Positions 6,272 through 27,750 of a DNA stretch of 64,000 bases are shown here, piece after piece. Positions within the stretch are counted from its first letter, which is position 1. Each line of letters opens with the position of its first letter. The notes below the pieces were generated by a model, which saw nothing but the letters and a program-made list of their open reading frames with translations, had not been told where the DNA came from and searched no databases. The stretch is from Saksenaea vasiformis B4078. Its lineage: Eukaryota; Mucoromycota; Mucoromycetes; Mucorales; Saksenaeaceae. The stretch covers positions 124,001-188,000 of the forward strand of contig JNDT01002388.1 in assembly GCA_000697055.1 (NCBI GenBank), in the 5' to 3' direction. A program made the position numbers and the translations under genes.

Positions 6272-8523
6272 ATGCGTTTCTTGGAGACACTTCTTGCGGC
6301 TGGCCTTGCCACCTCAAGTATCGCACAAGCTGCACGCATCGTGCATGATTGGAATATTACTTATGCTATGGCCAATCCTGACGGTCTTAAGGAACGTCGG
6401 GTTATTGGTGTCAATGGCAAATGGCCGTAAGTAGTAGTAACATTGTTTTGCATTAGATAACTAAAGAAAATGATGATTGTTTATTTATATATATAGTCCT
6501 CCAGCAATTCATGCTACAATCAATGATACATTGGTTATTAATGTCCATAATGGATTGGATGAACCTACTTCTCTTCATCCTCACGGTCAGTTCCAAAATG
6601 GTACTGTCTGGATGGATGGTCCTGTTGGCGTTACTCAGTGGTAAGGGCATTGAGCGAAAAGAGAAAAAAAAATTTTTTTCTTGTTTATCTGATCTTTTTT
6701 TATTATTATTTTTAGTGCTATTCCCCCGGGACATGATCTTACTTATGAGTTCCCTATCATCCAAACTGGTTCTTACTGGATCCACAGTCATTTCATGGTA
6801 AGAATAAAAAGAGAACGAGATTAGAAGAAAGTAGATGTACTCATTCACTGTCATTTAGGGTCAATATATGGATGGTCTTCGTTCACCATTAATTCTTCAC
6901 AATCCCAACGAACCTTACAAATATGATGAAGATATCACTGTCCCCTTTTCAGGTAAATTTTACTTTATCGCGTATCCCGGGTATTGCCGGTCACTAAAAT
7001 TCCGTTATTGTAGATTGGTATCACGATGATTACCATAAGGGTCTGGACACTTTCATGAGCATTTACAACCCCACTGGCGCTGAACCTGTTCCCCGTAAGT
7101 TTCCCCCATTTACACCCAGTCATTGTACGCGTTTCTCATAGCTTGACCAATAGAATCCGGTTTCCTTATGGAAAGCGTTGATTCAAGCTTGACTTTCCAA
7201 CCTGGAAAAACCTATCGTCTTCGCTTAATTAACATGTCTGGTTTCTCCACCTATTTCTTCAGCATTGATGGTCACGACCTTGATATCATTGAAGTCGATG
7301 GTGTAAGTGGCCTATTCTATATATGAAAAAAAAAGCCAGGATCTCTCATTGTTTTTTTTTTGTATAGATCGACACTGAACGCAAAACTGTTAAAAATGTT
7401 TACTTGACTGCTGCTCAACGTATTTCCGTCTTGGTTACCGCCAAAAATGCTACTTCCCTTAACTACATGATGCATGCTGATATGGACATCGGCATGTTTG
7501 ATGTCCTTCCCCCGGATCTCAAGACGAGTAAGTTTCCAAAGGAAATAGGGAAACAACAATGCTAACTTACTTTCTCACAGACATCACTGTTCCCCTCTAC
7601 TACGACCGCTCCCACAACAACTTTGCCCCTAGCGAAGATGTTGGCATGGAAAGTGACTTTGATGATATTGCTCTTCCTCCTCTTCGTCGCGCTGCTGCCG
7701 TTGAACCTGACCACCAAGTCAACTTGACCTTTAACTTTGATGTGACAACTGACGGTCTCAACCGCGGTATGTTCAACGAAATTCCCTACTTGACCCCCAA
7801 GGTCCCTTCCCTCAACACCCTGTTCTCCATGGGCAATCTGTCAAGCAACGTCGACGTCTATGGACCTCAATCGATGGCCTACGTTCTTAAGCATTTGGAT
7901 ATGGTAGAAATTGTCCTGAACAACCTCGACGATGGTGACCATCCTTGTAAGTGTCTTAACTTGTGTTTGTTCTTCGTTCGTATCCTGACAGCTACAATTT
8001 AGTCCATTTGCACGGTCACGCCTTCCAAATCGTTGCTCGTGGTGAGGGTATCTATTCCGGCAACAAGTCTGAAGTGAACTGGATTGTCGATAATCCAACC
8101 CAGCGTGATACTGTCCTCGTCCCCGGTCTTGGCTACACTATCATCCGTTTCCGTGCCGACAACCCCGGCGTTTGGTTCTTCCATTGTCATATCGAATGGC
8201 ATTTGGAATCCGGTTTAGCTGCTACCTTTATTGAAGCTCCCGATGTTGCCCAACAACGTATGAAGCTCCCTGACAAGTTCTACGACCTCTGTGAAGCTGG
8301 TGGAAATCCTGCTCGCGGTAATGCTGCTGGCAAGCAAGGTCTGGATCTTTCCGGTGCTCCCGATGGCATCCGCCTCATCTACGACGGCTTCACCGCCAAG
8401 GGCAAGGGTGCCATGGCTGCATGTATCATTGCCGCCTTGATCGGTATTGGTACCATTGTCTGGTACGCTTTGGCCGATCCCCAAAAGGAAGCAAAGGCCA
8501 TTGCTGCCGCGAAGCAAAACTAG
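6272..8523 (+). CDS. FET3: Fet3-type multicopper ferroxidase
   Basis: Cell-surface Fe2+ oxidase that hands Fe3+ to Ftr1. Nine exons (6272-6426, 6497-6640, 6716-6797, 6859-6952, 7014-7094, 7154-7302, 7368-7527, 7581-7946, 8003-8523) give 583 residues in one frame. Features in order: an N-terminal signal peptide (MRFLETLLAAGLATSSIAQA); the first copper motif HPHGQFQNGT; WIHSH; WYHDD; the HPFHLHGH motif, split by the last intron; and HCHIEWHLESG near residue 485. A C-terminal hydrophobic segment (AACIIAALIGIGTIVWYAL) anchors it in the membrane. All four His-rich copper motifs and the type 1 Cys are present. The first motif has Pro (HPHG) where fungal Fet3 usually has an aromatic residue. It is paired head to head with FTR1. 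Confidence 0.97.
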
Positions 8524-8550: not shown

Positions 8551-8670
8551 CTGCTTTATAATTCCTCTTTTTTCTTTACATAACTAGGTATAACCTTCTG
8601 CTTTATAATTCTTTCTGCTTTATAATTCTTTCTGCTTTATAATTCCTCTTTTTTCTTTACATAACTAGGT
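8551..8670. repeat. direct repeats between FET3 and Fanzor 3' ends
   Basis: A 39-bp sequence starting CTGCTTTATAATTCCTC and ending ACATAACTAGGT occurs identically at 8551-8589 and 8632-8670. Between them lie two 17-bp partial units (CTGCTTTATAATTCTTT) at 8598-8614 and 8615-8631. The second 39-bp copy contains the Fanzor stop codon (TAG, minus strand, 8665-8667). The repeats occupy almost the whole 141-bp space between the two convergent genes. Confidence 0.9.
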
Positions 8671-11530
8671 TAAGGACCTCCCGCCGCTAACAGACGGGCG
8701 TTGAAATGTTAGTGGCCGGCTATTGTTATGTCTAGACATATACAAAAATATACTACGCATATTTGCAGCGGCCATTTGATCACGATTCCACCAAACCGTT
8801 CGACATGTTTTTTTACAGATGAGAACAGTGTGGATTTTGCCAGCTTGATCGCAAGCATCTGGCTTTTCTTCTGCATTTTTCAGATGCCGTTCGTCACAGC
8901 TTGGACATATTTGGGAGGACAGGAACTCGTCCACCATGATGACATTCGTACGCACCTATGAGGAAGCATAGTAAAAGTCAACGTCAGAAAAAATAATTAT
9001 TGAGTACCTTTTTCCTTGAAGCACCCAGCTTCATTGCCTTTACAATTGACTTCGTTGGAGCAGATATCTTCCCCGTCATTGAACCTGAGAATGCTGCATT
9101 TCCATAGGCAATGATTATCGGCTTCTCTTTGTCTTCTTTCCGGTCATTCGGATCAGCAAATCGGAATCTCTCGCGAGATCCATGTTTCTGAACAGACTTC
9201 GGAATGTTGTCATTATATTTTGCACTTCCGCCCAAAAGTCGTTTAACAACTTCACTGATTCCTTTCTGTTTGTTTATATACGTCTTCCATCTGATTTTTG
9301 CGAATCTATATCAATGGACATTAACTTGAGATTCTTATTTATACACTTTACCTCATATCGCGGTCATAAAACTCAGCGATAACTTCATGATGCAATAGAC
9401 GATAAGTAATTGAAGAAATCATGTTCTCGAGTTTCGCCGTCCTGATAGACGGGATCTTATCGATGATTTCCTTCGTCGCAGGCTCTGAATTGAGGAACTG
9501 TTTGCGGCATCTGGTGGCATGGTTGAATCCACAGAGGTGGTAGTACTCCCGTGTACTTGTGGATCGTACTCGATGACTGCCTGTCGCAACTCCATCTGCG
9601 GCCACGAAAAGGTCCGTAACGCCGGGGTCAACTCCCCAAACAACCGCGTTGTCCACTATACCGCAGAGATCTGCCGGCGTTGTCGGCTTGCGCTTGGGAT
9701 CGTACGGTGGTTTGTACTTTTTGAATATGAATTCAACATCAACACCGTTAGTGCGGATTTCATCCCTATTGTACAAAGCCAATGAGATATGTTGGATGAC
9801 AATAAAGTATATCACTGCAATTCATACCAGAACTCGATTTTTTCTCCCGACAGGCTCTCCAAAGTAGGAAAACCGATTTTTGCCATGTCGAATAGTTCAA
9901 AATAAACTTTTCGTACTTCTTCATTGGTTGAACGATATTTCAACGTCGTGCCTGTCTGTTTCAGAAGATGCGCAAATGTTGGCTTATCTACCAGAATGTG
10001 TCGTACTTGAAAACTGTTGACTGGAAGGAGTGAAAAGCGCCTACATCCTTTAGGATCAGTGTACTTCTGTGGTTTGAAAGCATCGCTTTTTATCGCAGCT
10101 ATGGTCTCTTCAACGAACTCCTTGAGAAGGATCACTTCTTTTTCTGGTAATTTTCGGAGCTTCTTTGGAAGCTTAAGTCCTGCCTGCTTACGGATGGCTT
10201 GTCTTACAGCGAACTCAAGACTCCGGATGGATTTATTGGACAAAGTCTCTGTATGCGCTATCTGTGGCAAAGATTAAACTTTGATCAAATTGGTAGAGAT
10301 ATTACCTCTTTGACTTTGCGATGGACGTATGCAGTGGATACGTATTTTTGGGGCTTCTCTTCGGTAATGAATACTTTGGCTTCCATCCGCTGGAGAACGT
10401 GAAACATCCAAGACATATAGATATGGGGTTCAGCGTTCAAGTTTTTATCGTCAATTGCAACGTCGCCAAGCTGTGACGCTACAGATTTTCGAATGGTTTC
10501 GGCTTTACTTCGTAAACCAGGTTCATCTGGAAGTGCTTTTGGCCAGCGGGATTCGGAGCCTGCTATCTTGTCGTAGATGTGATTCGCTAGCGCTTTTCGT
10601 TCTGATACTTTGAGTGACTTAACGTACAGCTCGTCTTCTTCGTCTGACAGGACAATTAATAGGTACTGGATTGTTTTTTCACGGAAATTTGATGTAATAT
10701 GATTTCGAATATTTTCCTCGTACTGTCTTGCTTCAGTCGCAATTAACGCCATGAGGCCTTCGCTGTGGAACTTTTCGGGGCTGTACGAAGATATGGACTC
10801 TTTGAACATGTTGTAAACGGATTTCATCAGCGGAGGAGCATGCGATCCCTGCCCAGCGACAAGTGCAAACGCGGAGTAGCACAGATCGTGTGTGATTGGA
10901 GGCAAAGGTTGTCGATTTTGCAAGAGGTGTAAGAAAAAGAAATTTGTGAAAAGCGATCCGATGTACGCGATATCTCGAGTAACTTTAACAGTCTCTTGCA
11001 CAGCATTGATGAAACCAGGATTTTTTCAAGTGTTGTGTAAGGAGGATTTGATAACGGATGTCCGTTTGAACTGTGTCGTGGCTTTCCTTTTCGGTTTATG
11101 CTCCTTGCATAACTTGCTTGAAGACCTTTGGTGAGACGTCTCTCCACAGGACGGACACCGGATATCTTGGCCAGCCGCAATTTTTTCTTGGTTTTTTTGT
11201 TCCTGTATATCCTTCTTTGCCTTGAATTTTTCCCCCCTCTTCTCATAAGCCTTTTCAGCCTTCACCAGAGCCTTTGATTTTCTTTTACTGCCTGTTGAGG
11301 GGCCAGGAACGCAACTTATATCTTCATCGGATTTGGTTGACAAATCTATTTATTTGTAAGGAACTGACAAAGAAGCCATGAAAGGAAACCATACCTTGTT
11401 CAACATCATTATCTGTATGTGTCTCAGTTGAAGCTTGAAGGGATGTATCAGTGGTTTGGTTAAAAAAGGAGGTTATCAATGTCTGGTTTTGCGGTAGAGG
11501 CTCAGCCTTGATTCTGCGTTTTTTACGCAT
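8665..11530 (-). CDS. Fanzor (TnpB-like RNA-guided nuclease) with one premature TGA
   Basis: Eukaryotic relative of transposon TnpB. Six exons, complement of 11395-11530, 10306-11345, 9828-10261, 9352-9765, 9008-9305 and 8665-8955, join in frame to 871 codons; introns are 44-62 nt and GT-AG. Order of features: basic N-terminus (MRKKRRIK, likely nuclear localisation); a lysine-rich stretch and a Cys/His knuckle (CPSCGETSHQR); a helical middle region; RuvC-I GVDPGV (Asp about 583); a RuvC-II-like strand (IIIAYGNAAF) without the usual Glu; VDEF (Glu about 784), the likely rearranged catalytic Glu; a zinc finger with C-x2-C and C-x3-C (about 791, 794, 821, 825); and RuvC-III WNRD (Asp about 833) followed by AAANM. 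A TGA at 11026-11028 interrupts exon 2; the same frame continues with Fanzor-like sequence on both sides. A CGA-to-TGA change is likely; a 63-nt GTTATC...AGAG intron is a weaker alternative. Confidence 0.85.
8681..8719 (-). ncRNA. candidate Fanzor guide-RNA scaffold hairpin
   Basis: Arms CCGCCGCTAACA (8681-8692) and TGTTAGTGGCCGG (8707-8719) are near-perfect inverted repeats around a 14-nt loop, lying over the last Fanzor codons. TnpB and Fanzor guide RNAs are known to be encoded at the 3' end of the nuclease gene and to overlap it. The minus-strand RNA forms a 6-bp stem next to the loop, then a mismatch and further pairs. The role is inferred from position only. Confidence 0.35.
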
Positions 11531-11701
11531 GGCAGTAACGGAAAACAGTAAAAAGAGATAAATGGAGAAAGAAAAAGAAAAAAGAAAGAAGGTGTATCTC
11601 TTGTGACGTCTTACCTGGTTTCATAAATCAAGTGCATTTGACTCTTTTTCATGATGAACAGTTTTTCCATCAGCACCCATTTCATCAGTTCGGTATCTTG
11701 T

Positions 11702-11968
11702 TATGGAGGATGGTCATATCTGTCATAACGTCCAAAAGTTGTGTGAATGCTGCGTGGTCGCGCATCACTCGTCGCTTCTTTCAAAAGACCCTTTCTGAAT
11801 AAAATGAGTGCGTCCTCTTTAGACGCGTTTGTACTATCGCACAGCAGCGATCATTTCAATCAACCATATTTCTTAGGACACTGGCGGCCGCTCAGATGCT
11901 GCGTATTTATTCGTCATCTTTCTATCCAGGAAACGATTTCATATCTACAAAACTTCTGGACATCCGCC
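11702..11968. repeat. dispersed repeat, copy A
   Basis: It begins TATGGAGGATGGTCAT and ends CTTCTGGACATCCGCC, and is clearly related to 63107-63299 in the same orientation. Well-conserved blocks include CAGCAGCGATCATTTCAATC and CTACAAAACTTCTGGACATC. Copy A carries an extra 75 bp (11869-11943) absent from copy B and bracketed by CATA direct repeats. It lies just upstream of the Fanzor gene. Confidence 0.8.
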
Positions 11969-12599
11969 TGTATAAACATAGTAATCTTGTCTTTATTATT
12001 CATCTTGATAGATACTTCCAGAAGAAATTAACTTTATCGCGTAAAATGTGATTTTGGATAAGCAGTAATAAAATGAAGGAATGAAAGCCTTGTTGCCAAT
12101 GCTTGATCAGTAAGAGATGTGATATATGGTAAGAAATAGAATATGTGCCTCAGAATGGTACATGCCCAAGGAATCGCATTTTCTTGAAAGGAGCTACTGC
12201 AGAAAGATATATGGCAAGAGGATATATAGAAATTATGCTTTGCGGATACTTATATTAGGAAGACATTCCCAAAGCTGCGGACCTTCGCTTTGCTCAGATC
12301 GCGGTCCTTTTAGGTTTAATTATCTTAAAAGAGAATTTATGTTACAAAAGGAATTACGTTAAAAGAGTACTGACATAAACGTGTTAGATGTTCGGTATAG
12401 GTATAAATTTTTCTTTTACAAGTTGCAAGTGAAAAACTATAAGCGAATCTGGAAAAAAGGAAGCAGTGTATATTGACGCACCGCCTTATCCATCCAATCA
12501 GCATTGAAACTTTGAAGTCAAAGATTTTAATGTAAGACGAGTTTTCGCCCGTGATCCGCATGATCACGTAGAGATTTTTGGTATAAGAAGGATATGTAT

Positions 12600-23098: not shown

Positions 23099-26000
23099 TC
23101 ATCTTTGTCTCTTTAAATCATGAAGTTTCCATCGCGCGAATATATTTCCTTGATCTGCCGCTTTCTGGTACCATTCGATTGCTTTGTCGATGTCGTCCTT
23201 GTCATAATAGTAGATATACCCAAGTTTCATTTGCGCTTCTTCATTTCCTTGATCTGCCGCTTTCTGGTACCATTCAATTGCTTTGTCGATGTCTTTTCTT
23301 TCATATCTGTAAATACTCCCAAGTTTCATTTGCGCATCTTCATTTCCTTGATCTGCTGCTTTCTGGTACCATTCAATTACTTCGTCGATATTAATCTTTT
23401 CTGATATGTAAATACTCCTAAGTTTCATTTGCACATTGCCGTTTCCTTGATTTGCCGCTTTCTGGTACCATTCAATTGCTTTGCCGATGTCATTCTTTTC
23501 TAATTTATAAATACTCCCAAGTTCCATTTGCGCATTTTCATTTCCTTGATCTGCCGCTTTCTGGTACCATTCAATTGCTTTGTCGATGTCGTCCTTGTCA
23601 TAATAGTAGATATACCCAAGTTTCATTTGCGCATCTTCCTTTCCTTGATCTGCCGCTTTCTGGTACCATTCAGTTGCTTTGTCGATGTCGTGCTTGGAAT
23701 AATAGTAGATATACCCAAGTTTCGTTTGCACATCTTCATTTCCTTGGTCTGCCGCTTTCTGGTACCATTCAATTGCTTTGTCGATGTCGTCCTTGTCATG
23801 ATAGTAGATACTCCCAAGTTTCCATTGCGCATTTCCATTGCCTTGATCTGCGTATTTCTCGTATATTTCAATTGCTTTGTCGATGTCGTGCTTGTAATAA
23901 TAGTAGATATACCCAAGTTTTGTTTGCACATCTTCATTTCCTTGATCTGCGTATTTCTCGTATATTTCAATTGCTTTGTCGATGTCATGCTTGTAATGAT
24001 AGTAGATATACCCAAGTTTCCATTGCGCATTTCCATTGCCTTGATCTGCGTATTTCTCGTATATTTCAATTGCTTTGTCGATGTCGTGCTTGTAATAATA
24101 GTAGATATACCCAAGTTTTGTTTGCACATCTTCATTTCCTTGATCTGCGTATTTCTCGTATATTTCAATTGCTTTGTCGATGTCATGCTTGTAATGATAG
24201 TAGATATACCCAAGTTTCCATTGCGCATTTCCATTGCCTTGATCTGCGTATTTCTCGTATATTTCAATTGCTTTGTCGATGTCGTGCTTGTAATAATAGT
24301 AGATATACCCAAGTTTTGTTTGCACATCTTCATTTCCTTGATCTGCGTATTTCTCGTATATTTCAATTGCTTTGTCGATGTCATGCTTGTAATGATAGTA
24401 GATATACCCAAGTTTCCATTGCGCATTTCCATTGCCTTGATCTGCGTATTTCTCGTATATTTCAATTGCTTTGTCGATGTCGCGCTTGGAATAATAGTAG
24501 ATATACCCAAGTTTCGTTTGCACATCTTCATTTCCTTGATCTGCCGCTTTCTGGTACCATTCAATTGCTTTTTCGATGTCGTCCTTGTCATGATAGTAGA
24601 TACTCCCAAGTTTCATTTGCACATCTTCGTTTCCTTGATCTGCCGCTTTCTGGTACCATTCAACCGCTTTGTTGATGTCGTCCTTGTCATAATAGTAGAT
24701 ATACCCAAGTTTCATTTGCGCATCTTCATTTCCTTGATCTGCCGCTTTCTGGTACCATTCAACTGCTTTGTCGACATCATTCTTTTGATCTCTGTAAATA
24801 CTCCCAAGTCCCAATTGCGCATCTTCATTTCCTTGATCTGCCGCTTTCTGGTACCATTCAATTGCTTTGTCGATATCATTCCTTTCTAATCTGTAAATAC
24901 TCCCAAGTTCCAATTGCGCATCTTCATTTCCTTGATCTGCCGCTTTCTGGTACCATTCAACTGCTTTGTCGATGTCTTTCTCCACTTCATCTCCGGAACG
25001 ATATATATCTCCAAGTATGGTTTGTGCTTTATTATTTCCTTTATTCGCCGCTTTTTCATACCACTTAATTGCTTTGTTCATGTCTTTCTTTTCATCTCTG
25101 CACATATCACCGAGTTTGATTTGTTCATCTTCAAGTCTGCATTGCGCATCCCTATTTCCTTTATATGCCGCTTTCTCATACAATTCCATTGCTTTGTGTA
25201 TGTCTTTCTCGATCCCATCTCCATTTCTGTACATATCCCCAAGCTTCGTTTGCTCGACTCCAAGTCTCTGTTGCGCATCCCAATATCCTTTTTCTGCCGC
25301 TTTTTCGTACCATTCAATCGCCTTGATGATATCTTGGATCACTCCATCCCCATCTCTGTACATATCTCCGACTTTAGTTTGCGAATCTTCGAGTTTCCAT
25401 TGTGCAATCCAACTTCCATAACTCACTGCTTTTTCGTAACATTCAATTGCCTTGATCAGATCTTTTTCTTTTCCGTCCCCATCTCTATACATATCTCCGA
25501 GTTTGTTTTGCGTATATTCGAGTCTCCATTGTGCATCACAATGTCCTCGCTTTGCTGCTCTTTTGTACAATTCGATTGCTTTGTTGACTTCTTTTTCCAC
25601 TCCGTCCCCATCTCTATACATATCTCCAAGTTCGTTTTGTGCATGTCCAAGTTTCCATTGAGCATTTTCGTTTCCTTGTTCTGCTGCTCCTTTATAGCAT
25701 TCAATTGCCTTGTTCATTTCTTTCTTCACTCCATCCCCATCTCTGTACATATCTCCAACTCTGACCAGAGCCTTTGCAAGTCTCCGTCGACCATATCTCT
25801 CCATTTGATGTTCATCATCATGTCCAAATCCGAATCCGTCTACCATAGTTTCATACAGCAATTTTTGATACCAATCAATTGCCTTTTCGAATTCTTTCAT
25901 TTCATCCATGTAAATATCTCCAAGTTGGATTTGCGCATCTCCATTTCCTTGATATGCCGCTTTCTGGTACCATTCAATTGCTTTGTCGATGTTGTGCTTG

Positions 26001-27750
26001 TCATAATAGTAGATATACCCAAGTTTGATTTGCGCATCTTCATTTCCTTGATCTGCGTATGTCTCGTACATTTCAATTGCTTTGTCGATGTCATTCTTGT
26101 CCCATCTGTAAATATCCCCAAGTTTCATTTGCGCATCTTCATATCCTTGATCTGCCGCTTTCTGGTACCATTCAGTTGCTTCGTCGATATCTCTCTTTTC
26201 ATGTCTATAGAGCTCTCCAAGAAGGAATTGCGAAAATGCATCCCCTTGGTCCGCGAAGTTTCGATAAAATTCAATGTCAGAGCTTTCTCCCCGCCATGTA
26301 TATTGGACCGGCCAAGTCTTGTTTCTGTGATAGGTTGAGTTTGTGTTCAGGTTGACGTCTCGCCGGTCTCTGCACAAATTGCCTTCATAACTGGGTACAT
26401 CGCGCGGATCTTTTTGTGTCTCTCCACTTCTTTGACAAACAGCTTCCCAGTCTACGTTAATATTGTTGGTACCGCCATTTCTATCGGAATCCTTTTCGCT
26501 GATTATGTCTTTCTCAGGTTTGCTTTGCAATTTTTCATGTCCACTATCCATCGCTCTGTTGCTGCTCTGATTTAGAACTTGCAAACAACTCATGCCTTCA
26601 ACTTTGTTTTGCAAGTCCTCCTTTTCTTTATCACACTTTTTGAAAGAATCTGCTGTGTACTCTTCTGTAGCATGCGCAGATTCGCTATCGGGATGTGCCT
26701 TGTCATAAACTCGCTCCACTTGGAGACGCTCATGGTCATCAAGGATGTTATACAACGGCTTCATGTCTTTGAATTGGATAATTGCTGCTTCAGATTTTGT
26801 CGTTTCCTTCCAATTTTCTAGTCCATCCAAGAAAAATACTCCGGGATCACCACCTATCACAAGCTGATCTAGTTACTATTACAGACCGAATGAAAGTTAC
26901 CTATGACCTTCCAATATTTGTGATTTTTGACTGCGTTTGTAACGTTCTCCGCTACGTGTTCGCTGGACTCCCTGTTCTCCAAACCATACTTGTTTCCACC
27001 TTGCGATTTTGTCCTCTCTTCCTTACAAGCAAGTAATCCACCTAAATGAGAAGACAGTTAAATTCTGCTGTGCCTGAGAAACACAGTACCAAGTAAAACC
27101 CTTGATGGGTAGTAATAACCGAATCGCTCAAACACAGTTTGAAGTCCTTCGTACTTCTTCTTGTTGGTGCCTTCCTTCAGCGCATTTTGTATAGCTTGCT
27201 TGAAATGAGTCGTTGCCTGAACAAACTTGGAAGACAGATGCACCTGATGCGACTTCCTTTTTAGCTATCCCACCCTGATAAAATTCGTGTGGGACCTTAC
27301 TTCGCCCCATGAAACATAAGAAGCGGTGTATTCTACTGTGTCGTTTACAAAAGATTTCTGGTTCTCCTTACGTGCACAGGAACTAGACTTAGCAGCAACA
27401 TCATAAGCAGATGCTTTACATGGCAACTTGCGGAAGCTGTCATCCATCAACACTTCCGTAAAGTTATCTGCCCCGATGGTCTTTGTGTACGTCTGCTCTA
27501 TGAATGGCTTTTCGCAAGAATACTCACGAACCACTTTTAAAATGTTATCCTTTCCCTCTCCAATCTCTATTGCAGAGTGCTCGGCGATGTATCCATCGAA
27601 ATGGAGACCCCGCGTGCATCGGGTGACAACATCGTACGTCAAAAACTGAATAAGCTGTTGATAAGTGTCAGATGACCGCATATACAGTAGGATATGTGCT
27701 TTTCTTGTTACATTAAGTGATAACTCCTCTTTGGCGCAGTTGGAACTCAT
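23099..27750 (-). CDS. giant Sel1-repeat protein, N-terminal part disrupted
   Basis: Exons complement of 27090-27750, 26901-27041 and 23099-26853 join in frame to 1519 codons. The N-terminal 320 or so residues are non-repetitive, with conserved-looking blocks (KPFIEQTYTKTIGADNF, YVSWGEVRSHTNF, FERFGYYYPSRVLLGG). From about residue 430 there are some 30 Sel1-like repeats of 33-42 residues with consensus IDKAIEWYQKAADQGNEDAQ plus a KLGxIYxxDKD segment; Sel1 repeats form TPR-like helical scaffolds. One insertion interrupts repeat 5. An in-frame TAG at 27265-27267 interrupts exon 1. Around it a +1-frame reading (GIAKKEVASGA) looks coding, so two compensating indels are likely. Either the gene is decayed or translation starts downstream. 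The true start may lie further upstream. Function is unknown. Confidence 0.7.
23830..24530. repeat. 198-bp higher-order tandem repeat inside the Sel1 gene
   Basis: Two alternating 99-bp Sel1 units, one encoding GNGNAQWKLGYIYYHYKHD and one NEDVQTKLGYIYYYYKHD, repeat together with a 198-bp period for about 3.5 periods. The copies look almost identical at the nucleotide level (for example TTTCCATTGCCTTGATCTGC recurs at 198-bp spacing). Confidence 0.9.

Follow-up and report, generated by a model that had tools for sequence, protein, structure and literature searches.

A probable disabled copy of a multi-copy Fanzor1 element with an omegaRNA-like 3' end in Saksenaea vasiformis B4078

Fanzors are RNA-guided nucleases of eukaryotes. 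The following descriptions are taken from three reports. PpFz1, a Fanzor1 of Parasitella parasitica, is reported to cleave DNA and to bind cyclophilin with its RuvC insertion; its guide is said to be preceded by a stem 1 of 7 bp and a stem 2 of 4 bp (PMC11423790). The Fanzor1 families of Mucor, Rhizopus and Phycomyces were assigned to MuDR or left unclassified, some copies of the latter containing Crypton or Harbinger transposase sequence; one Mucor family has near-identical 3' Fanzor parts joined to differing 5' parts, and Fanzor1 was also found inside Chlamydomonas Helitrons (PMC3627910). SpuFz1 of Spizellomyces belongs to a multi-copy element with 30-nt inverted repeats and has an omegaRNA from the 3' end, located beyond the stop codon, with the flank as guide; the omegaRNA of GtFz1 overlaps the last 17 codons (PMC10432273).

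The window, i.e., the whole stretch of 64,000 nucleotides which was analysed, very probably contains one copy (about 8662–12535) of a multi-copy Fanzor1 element with a putative omegaRNA at its 3' end and a proposed homing scheme, the copy being now disabled. Like the families of Mucor, Rhizopus and Phycomyces, it is a Fanzor1 element of a related fungus, but here Helitron Rep/helicase sequence was found upstream of a few copies. The family shares with SpuFz1 the multi-copy nature and the catalytic layout, and a similar arrangement of omegaRNA and guide is predicted from sequence; in contrast to SpuFz1, no inverted pair was listed at the two element ends in a repeat scan, and the proposed scaffold lies almost wholly in the coding sequence. 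Compared with GtFz1, it is contained in the reading frame except for its last three bases. Unlike PpFz1, for which DNA cleavage was reported, the window copy is broken. Its features are, in window coordinates:

8642–8661, minus strand: flank, putative guide if an omegaRNA is made (flanks differ between copies; length assumed)
8662–8672, minus strand: 3' terminus of the element, TAAC-CTA-GTTA, which may form a 4-bp stem that includes the stop codon; the element ends at 8662
8665–8667, minus strand: stop codon TAG closing exon 6
8680–8698, minus strand: hairpin, predicted omegaRNA stem-loop within the coding sequence, both sides changed in four of six pairs across families
8665–8955, minus strand: exon 6, alternative Glu at 8926–8928 (computed from spliced coordinates)
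8779–8781, minus strand: RuvC-III Asp of WNRD in exon 6 (computed from spliced coordinates)
8803–8907, minus strand: zinc finger in exon 6 (computed from spliced coordinates)
9008–9305, minus strand: exon 5, RuvC-II strand AYGNAAF without Glu
9352–9765, minus strand: exon 4, RuvC-I DPG at 9621–9629
9828–10261, minus strand: exon 3
10306–11345, minus strand: exon 2, zinc knuckle of the N-terminal region and the part after it, holds the internal stop
11026–11028, minus strand: premature in-frame stop, codon 152, private to the window copy among five aligned
11125–11157, minus strand: CPSCGETSHQR knuckle (computed from spliced coordinates)
11395–11530, minus strand: exon 1, start codon and basic N-terminus
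11705–11970, no strand assigned: unrelated 266-bp repeat in the 5' non-coding part, absent from C457 and C187
12511–12535, minus strand: 5' end of the conserved element (TTACATTAAAATCTTTGACTTC...), less sharp than the 3' end

Splicing of the six exons reproduced exactly the 870-residue model of the initial annotation, in one frame and with GT-AG in all five introns. The sole internal stop is codon 152 (TGA), and the claim that one nonsense codon separates the gene from an intact one was right for the coding frame. The 266-bp insertion in the 5' non-coding part had been overlooked, as had the element ends. Since the stop removes everything after residue 151, including RuvC, the window copy should, judged from its sequence, be a nuclease pseudogene; its 3' end might still be transcribed.

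The 38.7-Mb assembly (666 contigs) was searched with the RuvC exon of the window, which matched at least 150 stretches (150 of 229 candidates being scored), or at least 135 places after merging by hand, when 15 second fragments of a copy already counted were dropped; the weakest of these showed 26–33% identity. Four copies (C457, C527, C299 and C187) match the window copy over about 3 kb at 89–91% DNA identity, and C538 matches it over 1.2 kb at 88%. Values of dN/dS in the coding frame were 0.21–0.27 between the window and the four close copies and 0.28–0.41 among the four. The family therefore multiplied under selection on its protein. Yet none of the five copies compared is free of lesions: the window copy has its stop, C457 and C299 have single-base deletions, C527 shows deletions, a stop and changed acceptors, and C187 combines small indels with a stop and one changed acceptor. 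GT-AG was kept in 17 of the 20 introns of the four aligned close copies, the acceptor being changed or deleted in the other three; as aligned, the first-intron acceptor carries the same alteration in C527 and C187. A domesticated or still active host gene, in which the stop is read through, lies in an unrecognised intron or represents a sequencing error, appears quite improbable. An intact remainder of the frame, purifying selection in the family and a possible sequencing error at codon 152 would agree with such a gene, but the window gene is one copy among many, and all four close copies have a sense codon at the stop position, yet are broken by other kinds of lesions. An intron at the stop would remove conserved residues, since the surrounding sequence aligns with homologues.

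Further Fanzor sequences were noted in the assembly. One place (L008, C648:189686–190111; 58% identity) lies 1.7 kb past the right edge of the window, and L071 (C419:63800–67500, minus strand) contains an unbroken Fanzor-like frame of 772 amino acids, with RuvC-I changed to DPR and WNRD kept.

The motifs which had been named for the protein were largely found as described. A script check placed the D of DPG (in RuvC-I GVDPGV) at residue 583, the pattern ExxxxxxCxxC (EFLSSQICPSC), with the Glu proposed just ahead of the zinc finger, at residue 784, and WNRD of RuvC-III at 830; AAANM following WNRD and the CPSCGETSHQR knuckle are present as well. In an alignment of four rows (the window protein and three homologues) the D and G of RuvC-I are invariant, homologue P0005 reading DTG, and so is the alternative Glu six residues ahead of the first zinc-finger pair. 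The RuvC-II strand AYGNAAF does lack Glu; this is a family trait, since the three homologues read AYGAANF, AFGAATF and AFGKTSF. The zinc finger, given as C2-C2, has instead the pattern CxxC...CxxxC.

At least eight distinct homologous proteins were found, and the window protein is 35–36% identical to three of them; together with the DNA identity to four copies over about 3 kb, this excludes a chance origin. Profile searches and structure prediction had been proposed for the Fanzor assignment in the initial annotation. The Pfam domain Cas12f1-like_TNB matched the window protein at 3.5e-5 and 24.3 bits, below the curated cut-off of 26.3 bits, which homologues P0004, P0005 and P0006 exceed. With the single window protein, SpuFz1 was matched at 0.0012 and GtFz1 at 0.084; a four-sequence profile gave 6.1e-7 for SpuFz1 and 1.2e-5 for GtFz1. 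This profile consisted of rows possessing the C-terminus; an earlier one, with rows mostly lacking it, gave no PDB matches. In the structural comparison, Fanzor1 structures were the best seven of 149 Foldseek matches, and seven Fanzor1 chains headed both match lists obtained; the model was that of homologue P0004, not of the window protein, with a mean pLDDT of only 49.9. The refuting conditions set out in the initial annotation did not overturn the assignment, and the identity of the window gene as a Fanzor1 RNA-guided nuclease is supported. A Fanzor2 or a misassembled bacterial TnpB, with which the same TNB-domain match would also agree, is disfavoured and extremely improbable.

With the close copies aligned, the 3' end of the element falls at 8662, three bases beyond the stop codon. 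An alignment of 16 family ends showed TTAACC[T/C]AG and then dissimilar flanks in 15 of them, 12 as TTAACCTAGTTA; in the remaining one, C613, similarity was lost short of this terminus. The genome contains 27 exact occurrences of TTAACCTAGTTA versus 14 of a reversed control; a pattern derived from the known ends, which adds the hairpin loop and spacing, was present 20 times versus none. At their 5' ends the close copies cease to be similar near 12535, at TTACATTAAAATCTTTGACTTC; this boundary is less certain than that at the 3' end, because some sequence beyond it is common to C457 and a second family. A Harbinger-like TTA target-site duplication was considered and rejected, since most rows have TTA after CTAG in a single orientation (one row has TAA and one CCA), whereas insertion-made TWA should occur both ways.

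Two repeats were observed in and next to the element. The 266-bp repeat has inverted ends of about 8 bp, as judged by eye, is also present at C629, C582 and C299, and looks like a small non-autonomous transposon. An exact 39-bp repeat (8551–8589 and 8632–8670), the second copy of which straddles the 3' junction of the element, brings about 10 bases of the element end plus flank back at a distance of 81 bp, with 17-bp tandem units in between; it represents a later duplication or, alternatively, a target similar to the element end.

The last 46 nt of the element contain a hairpin with compensatory changes between families and are followed by variable flank. A second Fanzor family (RuvC exon 53–54% identical) has the same terminus with another hairpin sequence, and a third family has the variant terminus CTTGTTA. 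Covariation was determined with 16 rows, namely distinct 46-mers with the TTAACC[T/C]AG motif plus one hand-picked row of the third family, the set excluding C613 and a fourth family. Over these 16 distinct ends, 90.6% of cells retain the six-pair hairpin, and in four of the pairs both partners change. Hairpin and terminal stem together had a covariation score of 0.363 versus 0.140 for shuffled sets (none of 500 reached it), and slid versions gave at most 0.229; two of the five covariation measures were within the shuffles (pairs changed on both sides, 397 of 500; further pair types, 145 of 500). The hairpin changes represent few events, since the 16 ends form three families and the changes are mostly between families. 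The only variation in the terminal 4-bp stem consists of two rows in which it is broken, so that covariation lends it no support, and the 46-nt ends of the three families did not adopt it when folded freely. A loop-tail pseudoknot, which competes with this stem for the same TAAC, fits the pair counts as well; its tail pairing was likewise not formed at the tip in free folding. We lean to the terminal stem, since PpFz1 was reported with a 4-bp stem 2 (PMC11423790). Free folding of the last 100 nt of the window copy was not unusual (z of -1.05, 30 of 200 shuffles as good), so that the case for an omegaRNA rests on comparison; a search of Rfam gave no match in the window at gathering scores. The 3' end looks like that of an omegaRNA, with all but the last three bases of the proposed scaffold within the coding sequence.

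An intact relative of the window copy would make the Fanzor1 protein and, from the same strand, an omegaRNA at the 3' end of the element. The final codons would fold into the scaffold, a hairpin of 6–7 bp and then possibly the 4-bp stem, and host DNA adjoining the insertion would serve as guide. The complex of RNA and protein would then cut matching DNA at re-formed empty sites, and repair would copy the element back in. The structure of the gene, its homology, the 3' boundary, covariation in the hairpin and purifying selection on the family were observed here; RNA expression, guide use, cleavage and homing are what we infer for the Fanzor1 element.

Helitrons have a hairpin at their 3' end, terminate in CTRR and insert between A and T. 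The hairpin of the present element, followed by about 11 nt, CTAG and T, matches such an end, and the Fanzor gene could be cargo at the 3' end of a Helitron, the hairpin and CTAG being the Helitron terminator; spread would then occur by rolling-circle transposition and not by nuclease homing. This is unlikely, but of some weight. When the 135 Fanzor places and five family ends were compared with 29 Rep/helicase places, merged by hand from two sets of 23 and 29 rows, a Fanzor place was located within 6 kb downstream on the same strand at four of the latter (C457, C92, C527 and C184). At C457 and C92, with Rep/helicase genes 36–60% alike in matched protein pieces, the helicase frame stops about 0.4 kb ahead of the same Fanzor 5' end. 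Co-occurrence of Fanzors and Helitrons is also mentioned in PMC10432273. However, the other 25 Helitron places are without a downstream Fanzor neighbour, C282 having instead a Fanzor place 5.6 kb upstream; at C92 only the Fanzor 5' end is present before the contig stops, and C184 and C527 are fragments. Hairpin, CTAG and T were found in two families, but CTTG in two others, which end in CTTGTTA (one copy CTTGCTA; by eye, two and four copies) and break the CTRR rule, and the TTA kept after CTAG would be unexpected for a Helitron end. In the window itself, tblastn with ten Helitron fragments (E 1e-3) found no Helitron Rep/helicase. A palindrome upstream of the 5' end was rejected as a Helitron end, as no places other than the C92 and window copies have it.

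A Fanzor1 element with homing remains the preferred reading, and the neighbourhoods suggest, short of proof, that Helitrons occasionally carry the Fanzor module along. It is a rather doubtful proposition that an omegaRNA scaffold which, except for its last three bases, lies in the C-terminal codons and has the stop codon as part of its final stem-loop forms, together with the gene, one mobile 3' module which is passed between distinct Helitron lineages; if so, a rolling-circle transposase and an RNA-guided nuclease would act on one and the same end.

Many other copies exist, and Fanzor1 was already known from related fungi; the window gene is therefore less exceptional than it was first rated. 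The present analysis adds its family of copies, the ends of the element, a covarying hairpin at the 3' end that lies within coding sequence, and the neighbouring Helitrons. A genome with well over 100 RuvC-exon places, several families and readable ends should be suitable for studying the co-evolution of guides and ends, and provides material for asking which transposase moves Fanzors. The hairpin with compensatory changes between families, next to a near-constant terminal motif, is a concrete and testable model of the scaffold.

Elsewhere in the window, the C-terminus of a multicopper oxidase (7960–8523, plus strand; Pfam Cu-oxidase_2, 1.1e-30) was found, the frame of which ends about 140 bp from the 3' end of the Fanzor element. 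An open frame of 1257 amino acids (23099–26872, minus strand) contains putative SEL1-like repeats and, at 23144–24976, 99-bp tandem units.
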